From positions 1 through 64,000 of the forward strand of contig NZ_BDCC01000050.1 in the NCBI RefSeq assembly GCF_001613305.1: DNA of 64,000 bases, read 5' to 3'. The position numbers were made by a program, and so were the translations under genes. The notes below the pieces were generated by a model. It made no database searches, was not told where the DNA came from, and worked only from the letters and a program-made list of their open reading frames with translations. Within the stretch, counting starts at the first letter, position 1. Each line of letters starts with the position of its first letter. Positions 38,357 to 48,616 of the stretch are shown here, one piece after another. Source of the stretch: Nocardia vaccinii NBRC 15922. Lineage in GTDB: Bacteria; Actinomycetota; Actinomycetes; Mycobacteriales; Mycobacteriaceae.

Positions 38357-38705
38357 GGCGGCAACGGTATTCGCCGCCCCTGTGAGATTCCTCCGCGCTC
38401 GCCGGCAGTACCTCCAGGACCTCCTGTGAGCATCCTGGTAGGTGATGGGCGGCGTTCCCACCGGGACGATGTGGTCGGCGGGCTGCGCTGACTGGATTCT
38501 CAATGGGACTCTGCCGCAATGAAATCAGGCAGGTTCTGAATCCGTTCGGCAGTAGAGCCGTTGGTGGAGCGGAGCCGGATTGTGCGGAAGCAAATTCTCC
38601 GTATCGGGTCGCCTGCGGGGGGACTCCGGGCCCGAGGTGCCGGTGCACACGCCGATCTCGCCGTGTGCCGCCCTGGATCGGTATCTCTATCCCGGTCGGG
38701 ACCGA
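38357..38705. other. Gap between lipoprotein gene and purine operon end
   Basis: A 349-bp gap that must hold the promoter of the leftward lipoprotein gene and any terminator of the purine operon. I see no supported ORF, RNA or strong hairpin. Confidence 0.4.
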
Positions 38706-39116
38706 TCACTCGGGTGAGATCTCGGTATCGCGTTGTGCGGCGGCCGATTCCTCGCGGTAGGCGCGCCAGTCGCCGATATCGGAAATATCGATGAGTTCGG
38801 GCGAGCCGAGCAGATCGGCGCGCAGGACCGTCGCCAGGCAGGCGGTGCCGTCCTCGAGTTCGATCAGGCCGAGTTCGAGTTCGGGCGGCTCGCTCGGAAT
38901 GAGCCTGTCCCGCAGCACTTCCAGCGGCACGTCGTACACCTCGCCGGTGACCGCGCGGCCATCGTCGGCGGCGATCATGGCGGGAAAGCGGTCGCCGACC
39001 GAGTAGTAGCGGTACTTCGCCGCGCTGCGCGCCGTCCGGAGCAATGGTGCGCCGTCGAGCAGGGCGTTCAGGCGACCGCCGCGCATACCGTCACCGTTGA
39101 GGAACATCAGGACCAT
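38706..39116 (-). CDS. Allophanate hydrolase C-terminal-like (GGCT-fold) protein
   Basis: A 136-residue protein resembling the C-terminal domain of AtzF-type allophanate hydrolases, which has a gamma-glutamylcyclotransferase-like fold. Matching blocks are MVLMFLNGDGMRGGRLNALL, a nucleotide-loop-like start, AAKYRYYSVGDRFPAM, TGEVYDVPLEVL and the closing ISDIGDWRAYREE. It lacks the amidase domain, so it does not hydrolyse allophanate alone. It is the last gene of the leftward allantoin operon, 13 bp after allantoicase, which produces urea and ureidoglycolate. A role in ureide processing is plausible but unproven. Confidence 0.7.
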   Translation of the reverse strand: MVLMFLNGDGMRGGRLNALLDGAPLLRTARSAAKYRYYSVGDRFPAMIAADDGRAVTGEVYDVPLEVLRDRLIPSEPPELELGLIELEDGTACLATVLRADLLGSPELIDISDIGDWRAYREESAAAQRDTEISPE

Positions 39117-39129
39117 AGCGTCTCCTTGG

Positions 39130-40137
39130 TCATCGGCCGGAAGTGGTTTTCCTGAAACGCTTTTCGAGCTCGCTGCGCCCTGCGTCGGTGATCCGGCCGA
39201 ACAGGCGCAGGCGGGCGATGCCGCCATCGGGAAAGACGTTGAGCCGCACCTGCTGCACCGGGATGTCCCCGGTGAGGCGGAATCGGTGCGGTGCGTCGGG
39301 TTGCAGCGCCACTGGATCGAGCAGGCCGATCGGTTTCCCGTCGGCAGCGTGGCCGTCGAGTGAGATCCGGGCCGGAGCATTTCCCTTGTAGTGCGTGGTG
39401 TCCACCTCGAGCACCGTGGGAACCGCCTCGGTGGCCAGTGCCACGGTGGCCCAGTCGTTTCCGCCGTCGCGGCGCCGCCGCATCTCCCAGCCGTCGGCCA
39501 TGAGGCGTGAAATCCCCTGCTGCAGCATATTGTTCGGCGGTGAGAAGAAGCCGTCGCTGCAGGCCACCACCCGGCCGCCGTTGTGCAGGGCCGCCAGATC
39601 GAAGGGGATGTCGTCGATCCACTGCGGATCGGGAACCGCGGTGCCGTGCACCCGGACCCTCGCGATACCGCCGTCCGGGTACATGTTCACCCGCACATGC
39701 GTGATCCGGCGGTCCGAACCGACCTCGAAAGTGTTGCGCGTGTCGCCCTCGACCGGGGATACCGGAACCAGGGGGTGCCAATCGGCCTCGAGCAGTTGCG
39801 TCACCGAGGGGTGTCCGAGCACACCGCATCCCTCGATCGACACCCGCGGCGGATAATTTCCGACGAAATGCGCTGTGTCAACAACGATTCCGGCCGGAAT
39901 GCCCGGGATACCCAGACGGATCAGCGCCCAGTCGGGCCCGGGGCTGCCGTCCCGCCGGCGCCGCGTCTCCCAGCCGTCGTACACCTGCCCCTTGGCAGTG
40001 AAGGTATGCGGTTGGAACACCGGGGCCTCGTCTCGGATGAGATTCTCTCGGTCGGCGAAGAATTCGTCGTTGGCGGCGACGACACTGCCGCCGCTGTGCC
40101 GGGCGGCCAGATCGGGACGCTGGGACCACTCACTCAT
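39130..40137 (-). CDS. alc: Allantoicase
   Basis: A 335-residue allantoicase that splits allantoate into ureidoglycolate and urea. The enzyme is a duplicated jelly-roll, and the repeat is visible. [19 protein letters not shown] near the N-terminus recurs as [19 protein letters not shown] near 190. [20 protein letters not shown] recurs as [36 protein letters not shown] recurs as [18 protein letters not shown]. The ATG at 40137 overlaps the stop of allantoinase by 8 bp, so the two are coupled. Cytosolic. Confidence 0.96.
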
Positions 40138-41482
40138 CGATACCTCGTTTCTGCAGCAGGCGGCCACGGGGGCGGCCGTCGGTGATCCGTTCGCCGCGCA
40201 GCCAGGTGGATCGGACCACGCCGCGCAGAGTGCGCCCGTGGTAGGCCGAGATCGGGTTTCGATGCCGCAGTTCGGCCGCGTCGACGGTGAACTCCTCGTG
40301 TGGTGCGAAGACGCAGAAATCCGCGTCCGCGCCGATCGCTATGCGGCCCTTCCGTTCCAGTCCGACCAGATCCGCCGGCCCGGTGGCCATCCAGCGGGCC
40401 AGATCGACCAGATCGACCCAGTCCGGTGCGGCCGTCCAGACCGCGGGCAGGCCCACCTGCAAGCCCGCGATCCCACCCCAGGCCCTGCCGAAATCCCCGT
40501 CACCGGCACGTTTGAGCGCCACGGTACTCGGCGAGTGGTCGCTGACGATGCAGTCGACGATGTTGTCGCGCAATCCGTTCCAGAGATTCCGCTGATTCAC
40601 CCGGTCGCGGATCGGCGGACAGCATTTGAATTCGGTTGCCCCGTCCGGAATCTCCTCGGCACACAGGGACAGATAATGCGGACAGGTCTCGGCGGTGATT
40701 CGCACGCCTCGTATCCGCGCCGCCGAGAGCATCGGCAGGGCATCGGCCGCGGCCAGATGCAGGATGTGTACCCGGGCGTCATACCGTTCGGCCAGGTCGA
40801 TCAGCGTTGTGATGGCGCGGATCTCCGCCTCGGCGGGTCGCGATGCGAGGAATTCGGCGTAGCCGCGGCCGTGCGGCGCGGGCGCGGTATCGATGACGTT
40901 CGGGTCCTCGGCGTGCACGATCAGCAGCGCGTCGAGTTCGGCGACGACGCGCACCGCGGCCTCGAGCTGCGCGGAGTTCAGATGACAGAACTCCTCGACG
41001 CCCGAGGGCAGCAGAAAGGCCTTGAACCCGAACACCCCGGCATTCGCAAGATCGCCCATATCGGCGAGATTGCTGCCGACCGCCCCGCCCCAGAATCCCA
41101 CATCGATACTGCACTGCGCCGCGGCGGCATTCTGCTTCTCGCGCAACGCCGCCACCGTCACGGTAGCGGGAATACTGTTGAGCGGCATATCGATCAGCGT
41201 CGTGACACCGCCCGCCGCCGCGGCGCGAGTGGCGGTGGCGAAGCCCTCCCATTCGGTGCGCCCGGGTTCGTTCACGTGCACGTGGCTGTCGACCAGTCCG
41301 GGCAGCAGTGCCGCGTCATCGGGGATCTCCACGATCTGTCGTGCGCCGGGAACCGCATCGTACGGTGCGATGTCACTGATCCGGCCGGACCGAACCACCA
41401 CCGATGCCGCAAGCTCCCCGGCCGGGGTGATCACCCGGCGGGCGCGAAAGACTCTGTCCGCGAGGGGGTTCGGTGCGTTCAT
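40130..41482 (-). CDS. allB: Allantoinase
   Basis: A 450-residue cyclic amidohydrolase that opens the hydantoin ring of allantoin to give allantoate. Metal-binding features are [20 protein letters not shown] (HxH), FKAFLLPSG (the carboxylated Lys), VHAEDP and [10 protein letters not shown] with their His ligands, and [10 protein letters not shown] with the catalytic Asp. Length and motifs match AllB/PucH. The ATG overlaps the stop of the small 87-codon ORF upstream (ATGA). It is part of a leftward operon from hydroxypyruvate isomerase to the GGCT-like gene. Confidence 0.97.
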
Positions 41483-41742
41483 AGGCGCGGGTACTCCGGT
41501 ATCACTGGTGCGGTCGCATCGTCGGGGCCGGCGGGCCGATGGACAGCCATCGGCGGCTCGGCCTCATGGGCCTGTGTTGTCTGTGTTCGAGGCGGAGCGA
41601 CGCCGCCGAAGGCATGAAACGCGGCGTCGGCATGCGGGTCGGCGTATTCGTGCGTGCGGTGCTCCTTGCTGATGATGTGTGCGCGTCGAACCGGGTGCGG
41701 ACGATGTGCACGGGCTCGGGCGGCGGGCATGGTCTCGGTCAT
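41479..41742 (-). CDS. Unknown 87-codon ORF between glycerate kinase and allantoinase
   Basis: An 87-residue ORF of unknown family. Its ATG overlaps the stop of glycerate kinase (ATGA) and its stop overlaps the ATG of allantoinase (ATGA). Without it there would be a gap of about 256 bp in a tightly packed operon. The peptide is rich in His, Arg and Pro ([26 protein letters not shown]) with nine His residues, which could bind metal. No signal peptide or membrane segment. Codon bias is weaker than in its neighbours, so it may be a true small protein, a coupling leader, or the eroded remainder of a former gene. Confidence 0.5.
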
Positions 41743-42926
41743 GATGGCGAGTGGGGTGGCGGCGGGATCGGTGCGGTGAGCTGTTCGCGGGCGATCCGCT
41801 CACCCTGTCGTCGCAGCAGCGCCGCGGCCTCGTCCTGGCAACGGCGCGTGTCCGGCTCCAGATCGGTGAGCGGATACGCGGCCGCGAATCCCGCCGCGCG
41901 CAGCCGAGCTTCATCCAGCAGTTGCCGACCCGCCACGGCGATCGTGCGAATCCCCGCGCGCCCGGCGCGGGCCGCGACGCCCGCGGGCGCCTTGCCGTGC
42001 AGGGTCTGCGCATCGAGCGAGCCCTCGCCGGTCACCACGAGGTCCGCTCCTCGCACGATCCGGTCGAATCCGACCAGGTCGAGCAAGACATCGATACCGC
42101 TGGACCGGTGCGCCCCGAGCACGGCCAGGGCGGCGAAGCCGATCCCTCCGGCCGCCCCGGCTCCCGGCCGATCGGCGGCATCGAATCCGGTGTGCTGGGC
42201 CACCAGCTCGGCCCAATGCGCCAGACCCGCTTCCAGGGCGGCCACCTCACTCGGGCCCGCACCCTTCTGCGGACCGAAAACCGCGGCAGCGCCACGGATT
42301 CCGAGCAACGGATTGTCCACATCGCTGGCCAGCACCAGTTCGGCCTCGCGGACACGCGGATCGAGCCGATGCAGATCCAGATCGGCGATATCTGTCAGTG
42401 CGCCGCCACCCGGACCAACGGGTCGGCCGTCGGCGTCGAGCAGCGAAGCGCCCAGCGCATCGAGCAATCCGGCCCCGCCATCGGTGCAGGCGCTACCACC
42501 GACACCGAGAATGATTGTGCCGCAACCGGTATCGAGCGCGGCGCGAATCAGCTCGCCGACGCCGCGACTGGTTGCCGTCAGCGGGGCGAGTACACCGCCG
42601 GGCAGCTGGTACAACCCGCAGGCCGCGGCCGCTTCGACGACCGCGACGGATCGGTTGTACGCGAACGAAGTTCGTATCTGTTCGCCGGTTGGCCCGGTCA
42701 CCCGGACCGTGCGCGCCTCGAATCCGGCGGCGATCGCCGCATCCACCGTGCCCTCCCCGCCGTCGGCCACGGGTACCCGGACGATATCGGCATCGGGGCG
42801 AATCCGCCGGATTCCCTCGGCCACCGCATCGGCGACCTGCCGGGCGGTGAGCGATCCTTTGAACTTGTCCGGCGCCAGGACGATTCGCGGCGGTGGTCCG
42901 CCCGGGGTACTCCCTCGCCGCGTCAT
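41739..42926 (-). CDS. glxK: Glycerate kinase
   Basis: A 395-residue glycerate kinase of the GlxK/GarK class (Pfam Gly_kinase), which phosphorylates D-glycerate, usually to 2-phosphoglycerate. Conserved blocks are IVLAPDKFKGSLTARQVADAVAEGI, VPVADGGEGTVDA, TIILGVGGSACTDGGAGLLDALGA, ASDVDNPLLG and DLVVTGEGSLDAQTLHGKAP. In this operon it would take glyoxylate carbon from allantoin into lower glycolysis. Its start overlaps the stop of the shortened reductase gene (ATGA). Confidence 0.95.
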   Translation of the reverse strand: MTRRGSTPGGPPPRIVLAPDKFKGSLTARQVADAVAEGIRRIRPDADIVRVPVADGGEGTVDAAIAAGFEARTVRVTGPTGEQIRTSFAYNRSVAVVEAAAACGLYQLPGGVLAPLTATSRGVGELIRAALDTGCGTIILGVGGSACTDGGAGLLDALGASLLDADGRPVGPGGGALTDIADLDLHRLDPRVREAELVLASDVDNPLLGIRGAAAVFGPQKGAGPSEVAALEAGLAHWAELVAQHTGFDAADRPGAGAAGGIGFAALAVLGAHRSSGIDVLLDLVGFDRIVRGADLVVTGEGSLDAQTLHGKAPAGVAARAGRAGIRTIAVAGRQLLDEARLRAAGFAAAYPLTDLEPDTRRCQDEAAALLRRQGERIAREQLTAPIPPPPHSPS

Positions 42927-43138
42927 GACTCGCCGCGTCCGTCGAGCTTCTCGATCACCGTCGGCAGTGCGGAATGATCGAACGATCCGAGGCCCCGGGC
43001 GCGGGCGGCGGCGATGAGCGAGGCGGTCGGCAGTGCGAGGTCTGCCTGGCGGGCGGCATCGGTGACGGTGCCCAAATCCTCGGCGGATGCCATGGGTGCG
43101 CCCATGATTCCGAGTCCGATGAATCCGATCCTGCTCAT
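42923..43138 (-). pseudogene. glxR: Tartronate-semialdehyde reductase with in-frame internal deletion
   Basis: Only 71 codons remain of a family normally about 295 residues long. Residues 1-17 (MSRIGFIGLGIMGAPMA) are the intact Rossmann N-terminus. The rest, from EDLGTVTDAARQADLALP to GLGSFDHSALPTVIEKL, is the C-terminal end, itself about four residues shorter than usual in the middle. The substrate-binding and catalytic Lys regions are absent, so it cannot be an active reductase. The start is normal and the stop still overlaps glycerate kinase (ATGA), so translational coupling in the operon has been kept. Natural deletion is favoured; an assembly error is possible. Confidence 0.85.
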
Positions 43139-43230: not shown

Positions 43231-44043
43231 TCAGCGGGTTGCCGGCAGCCAACCGAAGCTCTCGGCACTGGCTCCGCTGGGGACGTATTCCGCGGCGACG
43301 TGGCCGCGATAACCGGTATCGGCGATCCGGTCCAGATAACCGAAGATGTCCAGGTCACCGGTGCCGGGTTCGTGACGTCCGGGTGCGTCGGCGATCTGGA
43401 CGTGTGCGATCCGATCCGCGTAGCCGTCGATGACCTTGTCCAGATCGTCGCCGTTGACGCTCAGGTGGTACAGGTCCGCGAGCAGGCCCAGATTCGTCGC
43501 ACCGTGCGCATCACGCACCCGATCGATGACGCCGATCGCATCCTGCGCGGTGCGCAACGGATAGGCGGGCATCCCGCTGACCGGCTCGATCAAGGCGGTG
43601 CCGCCGATCGCACCGAGAACGCCGGCGGCCATACCCAGATTGCGGATCGCCACCTCGTCCTGCTCGTCCGGGTCCTGTCCCTCGATTCGATTGCCGTACA
43701 AGGCGTTGAACGCCGGGCAGCCGAGCCGCCTGCCGATTCGCGCGGCGGCGGTGACACCCGCGGCGAACTCCTCCTCGCGGCCGGGCCAGGAGACCAGTCC
43801 GCGGTCACCGGCGGGCATATCCCCGGCGAAGAGGTTCAGCCCGATCAGCCGCACCCCGGCTCGTTCGATCGCGGCGGCGAAGGCGTCGACCTCGGCATCG
43901 GCCGGGGCCGCGGTGGCGAAGGGCCACCAGAACTCCACCGCGTCGAATCCGGCGGCTGCGGCCGCCGCCGGGCGCTCGAGCAGCGGCAGTTCGGTGAACA
44001 GGATGGACAGATTCACCGCATAAGGCAGGGGGTGTCGTGTCAT
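43231..44043 (-). CDS. hyi: Hydroxypyruvate isomerase
   Basis: A 270-residue TIM-barrel isomerase that interconverts hydroxypyruvate and tartronate semialdehyde. Matches are YAVNLSILFTELPLLERPAAAAAAGFDAVEFWWPF, a typical Hyi opening, GLNLFAGDMPAGDRG, ALIEPVSGMP with metal Glu, LADLYHLSVNGDDL, and HVQIADAPGRHEPGTGDLD. It heads the leftward operon, followed by the shortened glxR, glycerate kinase and allantoin genes. No glyoxylate carboligase gene is in the window, so the supply of tartronate semialdehyde must come from elsewhere. Confidence 0.93.
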   Translation of the reverse strand: MTRHPLPYAVNLSILFTELPLLERPAAAAAAGFDAVEFWWPFATAAPADAEVDAFAAAIERAGVRLIGLNLFAGDMPAGDRGLVSWPGREEEFAAGVTAAARIGRRLGCPAFNALYGNRIEGQDPDEQDEVAIRNLGMAAGVLGAIGGTALIEPVSGMPAYPLRTAQDAIGVIDRVRDAHGATNLGLLADLYHLSVNGDDLDKVIDGYADRIAHVQIADAPGRHEPGTGDLDIFGYLDRIADTGYRGHVAAEYVPSGASAESFGWLPATR

Positions 44044-44254
44044 GCCATCTCTTCTTCGTCTGAGTGGGTGCGGGCGAATCCGCTGCCGTCGATCCCACCA
44101 CGGGGTCGCCCGAACGGCGAGTTTCGTAATGTGGAATTTTACTTCCGTAATATGACGGTAACGCCTGTCGGGCATGGTGGTCAACGTCTGCGATTCGGCC
44201 ATTCGGCTTTCGGTCGTGAGTCTGCCGGAACAATGAGACTCGGAGGTGCGGCGA
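44044..44254. promoter_or_regulatory. Divergent purine promoter region with IclR-like sites
   Basis: This 211-bp region separates the leftward allantoin/glyoxylate operon from the rightward urate operon. An AT-rich core holds TTTCGTAATGTGGAA (44122-44136) and ACTTCCGTAATATGACGG (44141-44158). Both resemble the dyad TTCCG-N5-CGGAA upstream of the iclR gene (46016-46030), so the IclR protein probably controls both directions. Confidence 0.55.
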
Positions 44255-44752
44255 GTGCGACTACCCCTGACGATGGCACAGTTGAACGAGCTACCCGAGG
44301 ACGATTGGCGCGACACCCTGCGAGCGGTGATCGGCCTGGTGGAGTGGATCGACGCGGTCGCCGCCGCCCGTCCCTACCCCGATCGGGCGACGCTGCTGTC
44401 CCTGGCCGAGCGCGAGGTGCTCGCACTGCGTCCCGAACAGGTGCGCGCCGCACTGGCCGATCATCCTCGTATCGGCGCGGCCACGGTCCCCGGCTCATCG
44501 GCCGCGAGAGAGCAGTCCGGTGTCGACCCCGCCGACGCCGCGCTCCTCGAACGGCTGCGTGCGGGAAATCGCGCCTACGAAGCCCGATTCGGGCGCATCT
44601 ACCTGGTGTGCGCCGCCGGTCGCAGCGGGCCGGAGCTGCTCGCCGACCTCACCGCGCGCCTGGACAACGATCCCGACACCGAAATCCACGTCACCAGAAC
44701 GGAACTCGCCGCGATCACGCGAAAGCGGCTGGAAGGGACGGTAATTCCATGA
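44255..44752 (+). CDS. OHCU decarboxylase
   Basis: A 165-residue 2-oxo-4-hydroxy-4-carboxy-5-ureidoimidazoline decarboxylase, the third step of urate to S-allantoin. The helical fold shows typical blocks: LTMAQLNELPEDDWRDTL, the conserved DHPRIG (catalytic His region, LADHPRIGAATVPG), EQSGVDPADAALLERLRAGNRAYEARFGRIYLVCAAGRS, and ELAAITRKRLEG. A GTG at 44255 is chosen because GGAGG lies eight bases upstream. Its stop overlaps the HIU hydrolase start (ATGA). First gene of the urate operon. Confidence 0.95.
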   Translation: MRLPLTMAQLNELPEDDWRDTLRAVIGLVEWIDAVAAARPYPDRATLLSLAEREVLALRPEQVRAALADHPRIGAATVPGSSAAREQSGVDPADAALLERLRAGNRAYEARFGRIYLVCAAGRSGPELLADLTARLDNDPDTEIHVTRTELAAITRKRLEGTVIP

Positions 44753-45087: not shown

Positions 45088-45996
45088 ATGGCCATTCGGC
45101 TCGGGCCCAATCAGTACGGCAAGGCCGAGAACCGTCTCGTGCGCGTATTCCGGGACACCGATCGCCACCGGATCCGCGACCTGAATGTCTCCACCGCGCT
45201 GCGCGGCCGGTTCGAGGACGCGCACGTCACCGGTGATCAGCGGGACGTTCTGCCCACCGATACGCAGAAGAACACGGTATTCGCCTTCGCCAAGGAGAAG
45301 GGCGTGGCCGCGATCGAGGAGTTCGCGCTGACTCTCGGCGACCATTTCATCGCCCGCTGTCCGGGCGCGGACGGGGCGCGCATCGAGATCGACGAGTACT
45401 CCTGGGGCCGCATCCCGGTGGACGGCGCGCCGCACGACCACTCCTTCGTGCGCACCGGCGGCGGTGTGCGCACGACGGTGGTCAATGTCGACGGAGCCGG
45501 GCCGGATCGGCGGGCGCACGTGGTGTCCGGGATCAAGGATCTGATGGTGCTGAAGTCGACCGGTTCGGAATTCCACGGTTTCTTCCAGGACGAGTACACC
45601 ACCCTCGAACCGACCACGGACCGCGTCATGGCCACCTCTCTCGTCGCCCGCTGGCGCTACAGCGGCGCCGACGCGATCGACTGGGACGGAAGTTTCGACT
45701 CGATTCGCGCGATCCTGTTGCGGCAGTTCGCCGTTGTGCATTCGTACGCATTGCAGCAAACCCTCTACAGCATGGGGCACGCGGTGCTCGAACAGCATCC
45801 GGACGTCGCCGAGATCCGCTTCTCGGCCCCGAACAAGCACCACTTCCAATACGACCTGGAGCGTTTCGGGCTGGACAACCCGGGGGAGGTGTTCATCGCC
45901 GCGGACCGGCCGTACGGGCTGATCGAGGCCACTGTCGAACGTGACGACGCACCCGAGCCGGGCAACGCTTGGCGCGGCATCCCGGGCTTCTGCTGA
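45088..45996 (+). CDS. Urate oxidase (uricase)
   Basis: A 302-residue cofactor-free uricase that oxidises urate to 5-hydroxyisourate with O2. Two tandem T-fold domains are visible: LGPNQYGKAENRLVRVFRD, then LPTDTQKNTVFAFAKEKG holding the catalytic Thr-Lys region, RTGGGVRTTVVNVDG, LMVLKSTGSEFHGFFQDEYTTL with the QDEYTTL signature, and EIRFSAPNKHHFQYDLERFG near the end. Completes the urate-to-allantoin set in the rightward operon. The iclR-type regulator follows after 80 bp. Confidence 0.97.
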   Translation: MAIRLGPNQYGKAENRLVRVFRDTDRHRIRDLNVSTALRGRFEDAHVTGDQRDVLPTDTQKNTVFAFAKEKGVAAIEEFALTLGDHFIARCPGADGARIEIDEYSWGRIPVDGAPHDHSFVRTGGGVRTTVVNVDGAGPDRRAHVVSGIKDLMVLKSTGSEFHGFFQDEYTTLEPTTDRVMATSLVARWRYSGADAIDWDGSFDSIRAILLRQFAVVHSYALQQTLYSMGHAVLEQHPDVAEIRFSAPNKHHFQYDLERFGLDNPGEVFIAADRPYGLIEATVERDDAPEPGNAWRGIPGFC

Positions 45997-46015
45997 GCGG
46001 AGACACCAGACACTC

Positions 46016-46030
46016 TTCCGTATGGCGGAA
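46016..46030. promoter_or_regulatory. Dyad before iclR gene
   Basis: TTCCG-TATGG-CGGAA is a perfect 5-bp-arm dyad between the uricase stop and the IclR start, 46 bp before the GTG. Related sequences are found in the divergent purine promoter region, so it is a candidate autoregulatory IclR site. Confidence 0.6.
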
Positions 46031-46076
46031 TTCGCTGGCAAGATGGTGGAAATGCCTACCGAGGAGGAGTAGCGGC

Positions 46077-46844
46077 GTGACCGAAACGCAGACGCGGGCC
46101 AGTGGCGGCGTGCAGTCCGTCGACCGGGCCTTCGAACTGCTGGAGCTGGTGGCCGACGCCGGTGGGGATGCGACGCTGTCCCAGCTCGCGGAGGCGTCCG
46201 GGCTGCCGCAGCCGACCATCCACCGGCTGTTGCGTACACTCATCTCGGGCGGTTACATCCGGCAGCAGCCATCGCGGCGGTACGCGTTGGGGCCCAGGCT
46301 TATTCGTCTCGGCGAGACGGCCGGCCGGGTGCTGGGCGCCTCGGCCCGCCCGCATCTGACCCGGCTGCGGGATCTGACCGGGGAGACCTCCAATATGGCT
46401 GTGCTGGACGGCGATCAGGTCGTCTACGTCGCGCAGGTGCCCTCACCGCACGCCATGCGGATGTTCACCGAGATCGGTCAGCGCGTGGACCTGCACTGCA
46501 CCGCCGTCGGCAAGGCTGTGCTCGCCACCCTGTCGCCCGCCGAGGTCGATCGCATCCTGTCGCGAATCACGATGAGCCCCCGCACAATTCACACCATCAC
46601 CGATCCGGCCGTGATCCTGGAGGAGATCGATCGAATCCGCGAGCAGGGCTACGCCATGGACGACGGTGAGCAGGAGATCGGCGTCCGCTGCTTCGCGGTC
46701 GCCATCCCCGATGCTCCGACTCGCGCCGCCGTGTCCATCTCCGGCCCGCAGGCGCGGGTCTCCGGTCTGGACATGGACGCCATCATCCCGCTGCTGACCG
46801 ACACTGCCTCGAGCCTCGGCCGAGACCTCAACGCGGCCAACTGA
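46077..46844 (+). CDS. IclR-family regulator of purine catabolism
   Basis: A 255-residue IclR regulator. The N-terminal winged helix is clear (SVDRAFELLELVADAGGDATLSQLAEASGLPQPTIHRLLRTL). The C-terminal effector domain includes NMAVLDGDQVVYVAQVPSPHAMRMF, LHCTAVGKAVLATLSPAEV and GYAMDDGEQEIGVRCFAVAIPD. By position it is the counterpart of AllR, which responds to glyoxylate or allantoate. The GTG at 46077 has GAGGAGGAG upstream. It probably controls both purine operons and itself through the dyads noted. Confidence 0.92.
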   Translation: MTETQTRASGGVQSVDRAFELLELVADAGGDATLSQLAEASGLPQPTIHRLLRTLISGGYIRQQPSRRYALGPRLIRLGETAGRVLGASARPHLTRLRDLTGETSNMAVLDGDQVVYVAQVPSPHAMRMFTEIGQRVDLHCTAVGKAVLATLSPAEVDRILSRITMSPRTIHTITDPAVILEEIDRIREQGYAMDDGEQEIGVRCFAVAIPDAPTRAAVSISGPQARVSGLDMDAIIPLLTDTASSLGRDLNAAN

Positions 46845-46877: not shown

Positions 46878-47077
46878 ACCCGCCACCTGTCCGCCGTCGG
46901 CGACGCCGTCGTCTCATGTGCCGAGTCGGCGGCTCGGTCACCCGCGCCGAGGTTGCGAGACGATCTTGCCCGACGCCGCCGGGTCTGCCTGGTGCGGCGT
47001 CAGTATTCGAGTTCGGACCACGGGATACGGATGGGAAACGGGAAATCGAAAGTGATTCCGTCGGAATTGAATTCGCC
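46878..47077. repeat. 200-bp direct repeat, copy 1
   Basis: This block covers the last 26 codons of the first Uma2 gene and 122 bp beyond it. It matches 47793-47992 at 196 of 200 positions by eye (offset 915 bp). It contains a short hairpin, CCGAG-N7-CTCGG, that may act in termination. Confidence 0.93.
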
Positions 47078-47701
47078 ATATGCTGCGCGGTCGTCGGCAT
47101 CGGGTGTATCCGATCGCCACTCCCCGGCGATGATGTAGTTCGCCGAGTGTAGCGGCGTAACGCCCGCCGGCAGTTTCCCATGACCGGTTTCCAGCGCAAA
47201 CGCCCGAACGGTCTTTATGCGGCGGGGCGAGTGCCCCATCAGCACTTCCCAGTACAACGGGATGCCCGCATGCGCGTAGCGCGCTTTCTTTGCTTCGATG
47301 TCACGATCGGAATTCGAGGGTGAAATGACCTCTCCGGCCACGTAGACATCAGCTGCCCGGATATCCTGAAACTCCTCCTCGAGGCAACGATAAATGAGGA
47401 AATCGGGAGTTACGTAGTCGGACTTGCCGGTTTCGCCGAAGAAGATGTTCGTTTCGGTTGACACTCGCCAGCAATGTCCGAGACTGTTCTGCATTTCTTG
47501 CCGAGCACAGCGTCGCAGGCTCGACCAGAGCAGGTTCGTAAAATCCTGATGCTCTGCAGGACCGCGCCGCGCCCACACGACGCGCCCGTTCCACAGTTCG
47601 ATCTGACCCGCGATCTCCTCGGGCAGGAGTTCGAGTTCCTCCCAGGTCATATACGCCGGGAGGTTCGGCGGCGCGACGTGTGGGACACCCATGCCGGTCA
47701 T
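47000..47701 (-). CDS. Uma2-family (DUF820) putative endonuclease, copy 1
   Basis: A 233-residue Uma2/DUF820 protein with a PD-(D/E)xK nuclease-like core. YMTWEELELLPEEIAGQIELWNGRVVWARRGPAEH is the family opening. TPDFLIY gives the Asp, and GEVISPSNSDRDIEAKKARYAHAGIPLYWEV gives the Glu and Lys. The role of the family is not established; some members act in small modules, many stand alone. It has the same length as its neighbour at 47915-48616, and the last 22 residues are identical. Upstream parts have diverged much more. No partner gene is adjacent. Confidence 0.88.
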   Translation of the reverse strand: MTGMGVPHVAPPNLPAYMTWEELELLPEEIAGQIELWNGRVVWARRGPAEHQDFTNLLWSSLRRCARQEMQNSLGHCWRVSTETNIFFGETGKSDYVTPDFLIYRCLEEEFQDIRAADVYVAGEVISPSNSDRDIEAKKARYAHAGIPLYWEVLMGHSPRRIKTVRAFALETGHGKLPAGVTPLHSANYIIAGEWRSDTPDADDRAAYGEFNSDGITFDFPFPIRIPWSELEY

Positions 47702-47792: not shown

Positions 47793-47992
47793 ACCCGCCA
47801 CCTGTCCGCCGTCGGCGACGCCGTCGTCTCATGTGCCGAGTCGGCGGCTCGGTCACCCGCGCCGAGATTGCGAGACGATCTTGCCCGACGCCGCCGGGTC
47901 TGCCGGGTGCGGCGTCAGTATTCGAGTTCGGACCACGGGATACGAATGGGAAACGGGAAATCGAAAGTGATTCCGTCGGAATCGAATTCGCC
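47793..47992. repeat. 200-bp direct repeat, copy 2
   Basis: Second copy of the block at 46878-47077, covering the last 26 codons of the second Uma2 gene and 122 bp beyond. Four differences by eye. The boundaries are sharp on both sides. Confidence 0.93.
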
Positions 47993-48616
47993 GGGGTCCA
48001 GGCCGTCCTCCAGGTCCTCGGTCTCCGGAGGGCCGGACATCCACTCTCCGGCGATGATGTAGTTCGCCCGACGCAACGGGGTTACATCTTCAGGAAGCCG
48101 ACCGTGGCCGGTCTCGAGGCCGAATGCTCGAACGGTGGTCGTGGGATGCTCTCCGCGCCCGAGGAGCACCTCCCAGTACCAGGGGATACCGGCATTCGCG
48201 TATCTCGTCTTCTTCATTTCGACGTCACGCGGAGTGTTGGACGGCGACAGTACTTCGCCGACCAGTTGCACGTCCGAGGCGCGAATGTCCTGGTACCTCT
48301 CCTGCAGACAGCCGTAGACCAAGAAGTCGGGGGTCAGAAAGTCGGATTTACCGGTGTCGCCGAGGAATATATTTGTTTCGACGCTGACTCGCCAACACCG
48401 GTCCGGACGCTCGGCCATATCTGCGCGGGCGCACCGTCTGAGTGCGTTGCGAAACTCGACGGTGCAGTCCCGGTGCTCGGCCGGTCCTCGTCGTGCCCAT
48501 ACGACGCGCCCCTCCCACAGTTCGATCTGACCCGCGATCTCCTCGGGCAAGAGCTCGAGTTCCTCCCAGGTCATCGTCGAGGGAAGGTCGGGGCGCGCAT
48601 GGTGCCGGATGGACAT
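47915..48616 (-). CDS. Uma2-family (DUF820) putative endonuclease, copy 2
   Basis: A 233-residue paralogue of the protein at 47000-47701, with the same architecture: TMTWEELELLPEEIAGQIELWEG, LTPDFLVYGCL (Asp), and GEVLSPSNTPRDVEMKKTRYANAGIPWYWEV (Glu and Lys). The catalytic residues appear intact in both. The two share FDFPFPIRIPWSELEY at the end, encoded by the 200-bp DNA repeat. It is probably the upstream member of a tandem duplication. Function unknown. Confidence 0.88.
   Translation of the reverse strand: MSIRHHARPDLPSTMTWEELELLPEEIAGQIELWEGRVVWARRGPAEHRDCTVEFRNALRRCARADMAERPDRCWRVSVETNIFLGDTGKSDFLTPDFLVYGCLQERYQDIRASDVQLVGEVLSPSNTPRDVEMKKTRYANAGIPWYWEVLLGRGEHPTTTVRAFGLETGHGRLPEDVTPLRRANYIIAGEWMSGPPETEDLEDGLDPGEFDSDGITFDFPFPIRIPWSELEY

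Follow-up and report, generated by a model that had tools for sequence, protein, structure and literature searches.

The 71-codon open reading frame between the hydroxypyruvate isomerase-like gene and the glycerate kinase gene of Nocardia vaccinii NBRC 15922 is, as judged from sequence comparisons, most probably a deletion pseudogene of glxR (tartronate-semialdehyde reductase) that arose as the branch of purine (urate/allantoin) breakdown leading from glyoxylate to glycerate decayed (probability of roughly 0.88). An intact orthologue, a syntenic position and a disabling lesion were all found, and the case represents an ordinary pathway loss in one Nocardia lineage. The window, i.e., the whole stretch of 64,000 nucleotides analyzed, is located on contig NZ_BDCC01000050.1 (C50) of a 9.22-Mb genome assembled into 141 contigs, the closest relatives of which are Nocardia members; its sequence is free of N. 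The locus is a purine-breakdown island featuring the following elements:

38626..38676, minus strand: scrap of gcl (glyoxylate carboligase), 51 nt, 86% identity to N. jiangxiensis gcl
38706..39107, minus strand: allophanate hydrolase C-terminal-domain protein (PF21986)
39130..40137, minus strand: allantoicase gene alc, intact (PF03561)
40130..41482, minus strand: allantoinase gene allB, intact (TIGR03178 above cut-off)
41739..42926, minus strand: glycerate kinase gene glxK, intact (TIGR00045, PF02595), its start ATG overlapping the TGA of the remnant
42923..43138, minus strand: glxR remnant (orthologue alignment, blastn, profile)
43081..43090, minus strand: approximate position of the scar left by the 657-nt deletion (break between the blastn segments at 43086 and 43080; alignment)
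43231..44043, minus strand: hyi, hydroxypyruvate isomerase-like, intact (TIGR03234, 277 bits, cut-off 353)
44246..44752, plus strand: OHCU decarboxylase gene, divergent neighbor (PF09349)
45088..45996, plus strand: uricase gene, intact (PF01014)
45969..46844, plus strand: IclR-type regulator gene

The genes for uricase, allantoinase, allantoicase and glycerate kinase as well as hyi are thus all intact. Among the loci compared, the closest relative is that of N. jiangxiensis (L057), with identities of 90% for hyi, 86% for glxK, 90% for allB, and 87% for alc. In close relatives, the genes stand in one row (hyi-glxR-glxK-allB-alc-...-gcl), with gcl being located behind the allantoicase gene and an allophanate-hydrolase-like gene in N. 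jiangxiensis and N. macrotermitis. Outside this row, two similar adjacent ORFs of 233 aa (47000-47701 and 47915-48616) look like a tandem duplication, a single counterpart being present in N. macrotermitis (L153:17234-17977).

The remnant (43138-42923, minus strand) comprises 71 codons plus TGA and joins codons 1-18 of GlxR to its last ~53 codons; open reading frame, strand, coordinates and both GlxR ends were found as described in the sequence-only reading. GlxR of N. jiangxiensis (L057:6907-7788, 294 aa), which passes the TIGR01505 cut-off (350.7 bits vs. 340.75) and matches the solved reductase 1vpd at 3.9e-63, served as the reference orthologue. Nucleotide alignment to the corresponding gene revealed three gaps of 657, 12 and 6 nt, each of them a multiple of three. 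The 657-nt deletion takes out orthologue residues 19-237 and with them the hinge region along with the greater part of the NAD-binding domain, and the retained part resumes at residue 238; the exact breakpoint is blurred because the flanks have diverged. The internal loss of about 220 residues proposed previously corresponds to this in-frame gap of 219 codons, but the two smaller deletions (12 and 6 nt) had been missed, and about 223 codons are gone in total. In blastn searches of the whole genome, orthologue nucleotides 1-53 and 716-879 matched the remnant with 91% (E 3.5e-13) and 77% identity (E 9e-32), respectively. Since these flanks represent the top two genome-wide matches of the orthologue gene, both ends are recognizable beyond chance.

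At the profile level, the remnant obtained 39.8 bits (3.1e-10) for NCBIfam TIGR01505, covering only profile positions 237-287 and staying below the cut-off of 340.75, and 29.9 bits for PRK11559, far under the cut-off. No Pfam family matched the remnant at 0.001, and PF03446 and PF14833 appeared as sub-threshold hits only when E values of up to 1 were allowed. The plasmid collection yielded a single match, namely to a TIM-barrel gene over 26% of the query. Published work names S120, G121, G122, K171 and Q173 as catalytic residues of GarR (PMC12694930); by eye, in the 1vpd alignment, these positions fall inside the gap of the remnant. Compared to GlxR/GarR (TIGR01505; PDB 1vpd), both ends are therefore recognizable and the operon context resembles that of purine/glyoxylate clusters, but the ~223 missing codons include the catalytic residues named there for GarR (PMC12694930), that is, the active-site Ser-Gly-Gly and the hinge Lys/Gln within residues 19-237. 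The GGAG ahead of the remnant ATG is preserved.

Alignment to N. jiangxiensis indicated that the 6-nt deletion took the native glxR stop; with these six bases missing, the frame now closes at the TGA within the ATGA that it shares with glxK. In none of seven loci from relatives (six genomes) does the TGA of an ATGA end glxR, the stop being TAG or TAA instead, and the glxK start was found at -1 (two loci), +2 (two loci), +4, +5, and +18 nt relative to glxR. N. jiangxiensis and N. macrotermitis feature the stop TAG followed by TC and the glxK ATG, N. miyunensis and the second N. jiangxiensis cluster the one-base overlap TAATG, and N. albiluteola, N. transvalensis (L063) and N. wallacei (L062) gaps of 4, 5 and 18 nt, respectively, when the next ATG is taken as the glxK start. 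An overlap conserved as in a translation-coupled leader cistron was accordingly not found among these loci (TAATG in 2/7, gaps of 2-18 nt in 5/7), and the alignments mark the ATGA overlap as a new product of decay. The earlier statement that coupling was retained is incorrect in this form: the overlap is derived and was made by the 6-nt deletion, and nothing but the close spacing between glxR stop and glxK start is old.

To this lesion comes the state of the pathway in the remaining genome, for which the sequence-only reading had suggested searching for a second glxR and for gcl. Scoring of 14 of the 36 candidates revealed no TIGR01505 match at E<=1e-70 in this genome, and the N. jiangxiensis GlxR query recovered, besides the 3' part of the remnant, eight paralogues of only 23-37% identity. 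Likewise, a genome-wide search for the lost 662 nt (query positions 54-715) did not recover them, the matches outside the two flanks being short and the best one measuring 73 nt with 78% identity and residing in a paralogue. Deletion of the active-site motifs, absence of the missing DNA from other places and lack of a second glxR support the suspected loss of the reductase step. A family-level copy of gcl was not found in the genome either: there was no match at E<=1e-200, and the best one reached 383 bits compared to a cut-off of 711.2 (14/14 candidates scored), while gcl of six other Nocardia members scored 672-700 bits, slightly under the cut-off. In the control of the gcl profile, matches were obtained in 14/14 genomes at E<=0.001, in one of them above the cut-off. 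The 383-bit match was rejected as a second gcl, because related thiamine enzymes account for such matches; we infer that it represents acetolactate synthase.

The best genome-wide blastn match of N. jiangxiensis gcl (E 4e-9) is the scrap at 38626-38676, which corresponds to nucleotides 179-229 of the 1764-nt match of that gene and occupies the syntenic place in the same orientation. A base-by-base alignment of the gcl region was set aside in favor of blastn, since it forced unrelated sequence together. As stated in PMC12694930, Gcl converts two glyoxylates to tartronate semialdehyde, which is reduced to glycerate by GlxR. The reductase step is moot in this genome, because gcl, encoding the maker of its substrate, is lost as well, and the branch from glyoxylate via tartronate semialdehyde to glycerate is, by all sequence indications, lost. 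A malate synthase G gene is present (1193 bits vs. a cut-off of 989).

Decay is also evident within the retained sequence. When only positions covered by the alignment of four genomes and identical in two outgroups were considered, lineage-specific replacements were counted at 11/43 sites of the 3' part, compared to 71/1511 in six neighbors (hyi, glxK, allB, alc, uox, and OHCU, the first 11-12 glxK codons being left out; Fisher p = 7e-6). In the N. jiangxiensis control, the corresponding values were 2/43 and 34/1511 (p = 0.26). The neighbor genes evolved somewhat faster in the lineage studied than in N. jiangxiensis (71 vs. 34 of 1511), so that the remnant has to be compared with genes of its own lineage. 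For the whole remnant, 11/59 sites carried such replacements (p = 1.4e-4), whereas the 5' part showed none at its 16 sites (difference from the 3' part p = 0.026, uncorrected); relaxed constraint, as expected for a deletion pseudogene, was thus observed in the 3' part only. Furthermore, 10 of the 49 retained positions that are invariant in 11 intact GlxR copies are altered in the remnant, compared to 1/50 each in leave-one-out controls with N. jiangxiensis, N. macrotermitis, and N. albiluteola. Against three relatives, dN/dS ranged from 0.29 to 0.31 for the whole remnant and from 0.32 to 0.41 for its 3' part, the latter compared to 0.17-0.18 for intact pairs. Since these values are below 1, the loss must date from only part of the branch.

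Several observations argue against a pseudogene, namely the open frame with three frame-keeping deletions and the preserved GGAG, the 5' part lacking lineage-specific replacements at its 16 sites, and the intactness of hyi (dN/dS 0.21 vs. N. jiangxiensis), which would be expected to be idle without Gcl and GlxR. The dN/dS values below 1 and the somewhat faster evolution of the neighbor genes in this lineage point in the same direction. The product of hyi scores below the hydroxypyruvate isomerase cut-off of TIGR03234, which is reached by none of the 148 Nocardia genomes (0/148). Regarding the open frame, it is probably mostly luck in a G+C-rich sequence; in addition, there was perhaps selection against frameshifts and stops impairing glxK translation, the glxK start being near the glxR stop in relatives too.

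A stronger version of the latter idea, which we consider unlikely, assigns the remnant a role as a translational relay: ribosomes that have completed its 71 codons would initiate on glxK by termination-reinitiation, and selection would maintain the open frame, the ribosome-binding site and the stop/start spacing, with the peptide as such being irrelevant. The deletions of 657, 12 and 6 nt are consistent with this idea, as all of them keep the frame, for which the chance with random lengths is between 1/9 (stop-removing deletion set aside) and 1/27; so are the GGAG ahead of the ATG, the spacing of -1 to +18 nt in the seven loci of relatives, and the intact glxK with a dN/dS of 0.19. The contrast between the 5' and the 3' part points in the same direction, but its p value is uncorrected and the first GlxR codons are near-invariant among the aligned relatives, so that the lack of change at the 5' end says little. 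A second hint, though a single example, comes from N. wallacei, in which allB has been reduced to an in-frame remnant. On the other hand, the ATGA overlap is new rather than kept, simulated copies of the present stop-free sequence remained without a stop in about 77% of cases after 20 random substitutions, and the demand for glxK is uncertain without Gcl. Moreover, it was the open frame that drew attention to the case, which biases the chance figures and overstates the surprise. The related proposal of selection to keep only the ends gains weak support from the three in-frame deletions, while the rapid evolution of the 3' end speaks against it. Slightly less probable still is the combined scenario, in which a dead enzyme gene would have been pared by successive frame-keeping deletions to a relay from the hyi side to glxK, with the new ATGA tightening the link.

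It was also considered whether the true gene is of full length and the deletion reflects assembly collapse or sequencing error, a concern raised by the sequence-only reading and in principle conceivable for a draft of 141 contigs. This is very improbable, because the retained 3' part has diverged and 10 of the 49 invariant positions are changed; a collapse would neither produce such alterations nor delete the native stop, nor would it coincide with gcl loss 4 kb away. Furthermore, there is no repeat at the breakpoints to collapse on: exact words occurring within 60 nt of both breakpoints were at most 7-9 nt long in the three intact relatives inspected, as compared to a mean of about 7 and maxima of 9-11 for shuffled sequences. 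Also, the absent segment was not detected in any other part of the genome.

Equally improbable is the idea that the two GlxR ends make up a novel, functional small protein, for which the open frame with its good ribosome-binding site and the dN/dS below 1 would speak, but which is opposed by replacements at positions invariant in intact copies, by the loss of most of the NAD-binding domain and of the hinge-region active site, and by the fact that the 71-residue query was matched from 1 to 71 in its own genome only. Using collections with one genome per species, 52 of 150 Nocardia genomes matched this query at E<=0.001, and the other Nocardia matches, among those listed, were all situated in open frames of at least 291 aa. 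At the level of the order, 34 of 397 genomes matched at E<=1e-8, again with a full-query match in the own genome only. The short form, wide conservation of which under selection would have spoken for a small protein, was therefore seen in no other genome searched (150 Nocardia; 397 of the order). Among the best 80 of 491 confirmed loci, GlxR was matched over 250 aa or more in 77 and not at all in two (L060 and L129), and L113 was matched in part, at its border and on the opposite strand. In a genome from another family with a completeness of 74% (G181:C23:112087-112248), the C-terminal portion of GlxR was matched in a 144-aa open frame, with the N-terminal part being absent; this may represent either a truncated gene or an assembly effect.

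The distribution of the three genes was determined for 148 Nocardia genomes, of which 48 encode gcl (E<=1e-200), 55 glxR (E<=1e-70), and 58 hyi (E<=1e-40), with all three being present in 47; 47 of the 48 gcl-bearing genomes hence also possess glxR and hyi. One genome (G044) harbors gcl and hyi without glxR, eight harbor glxR without gcl (three of them with hyi), and seven, including the genome studied here, harbor hyi without the other two. The remaining six members of the last group at the thresholds used are G015, G023, G080, G099, G106, and G115, G015 and G106 having weak scores. In G029, G030 and one G143 copy, the contig start is about 400 bases or less away from glxR, and these cases may be assembly gaps.

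Further irregularities were recorded in the loci compared. In N. wallacei strain 740803001 (L062:5508-5903), allB features an in-frame internal deletion of ~308 codons with an open frame and no N, and alc matches in full length behind the allB remnant. The collapsed allantoin cluster of N. miyunensis (L060) represents the same locus as that in the window and also lacks a glxR match, its gcl being cut to a piece of ~226 nt directly after hyi (L060:6804-7136). Unlike in the window, glxK, allB and alc were not found in the stretch behind hyi, and N. miyunensis possesses a second hyi-glxR-glxK-gcl cluster (L058). Two such clusters are also present in N. jiangxiensis (L057 and L059) and N. albiluteola (L064 and L065); those of N. 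albiluteola, located on different contigs, gave identical match statistics for most genes and represent either a recent duplication or an assembly duplicate. In Saccharopolyspora oryzae (L133:6814-7695), a full-length glxR match contains one internal stop, possibly its natural end. In two Saccharomonospora loci (L101 and L111), glxK seemed to carry internal deletions, but these were rejected, as they are runs of N in the assemblies. Stops were reported inside several allB and glxK matches; the L057 allB and L063 glxK queries overran their own natural stops, and such overrun can account for stop reports near gene ends.

For the preferred reading, a deletion pseudogene in a decaying pathway, the following course is proposed. 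Loss of either glxR or gcl would have made the other useless, because Gcl makes the tartronate semialdehyde that GlxR reduces, and both would then have eroded, with either gene possibly being lost first. The nitrogen-releasing steps catalyzed by uricase, allantoinase and allantoicase would have stayed under selection. Glyoxylate may be consumed via malate synthase G, or it may be a mere by-product when allantoin serves as the nitrogen source. Functionally dependent genes reportedly erode together, as proposed by Dagan et al. in 2006 under the term 'domino theory of gene death'; the title of that work refers to obligate symbiotic bacterial pathogens, whereas the genome studied here comprises 9.2 Mb.

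A literature search combining Nocardia with allantoin, glyoxylate and purine degradation returned no match. In the gcl cluster of Pseudomonas aeruginosa (PA1498-PA1502) and in the Nocardia relatives, hyi, glxR, glxK and gcl are located near purine genes, whereas the window keeps only hyi and glxK, gcl and glxR being gone. According to PMC12694930, P. aeruginosa transposon mutants in glxR, hyi or gcl did not grow on allantoin as the sole carbon source but grew on glucose plus allantoin, and the poor growth of E. coli glycerate kinase mutants supplied with allantoin as the nitrogen source was ascribed to glyoxylate toxicity. By analogy, a growth cost in the strain studied here is possible.

The results illustrate that a stop/start overlap observed in one genome need not be ancestral. 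If relays into downstream genes proved general, in-frame operon remnants, another one being that of allB in N. wallacei (L062), would have to be regarded as non-polar scars that persist for the benefit of the genes behind them. For N. vaccinii NBRC 15922, it is predicted, by analogy with the mutants described above, that urate or allantoin would be usable as a nitrogen source, whereas allantoin as the sole carbon source would allow poor or no growth. The locus represents a clean case in which the dependent enzymes Gcl and GlxR were lost together while the nitrogen-yielding steps of purine breakdown stay.
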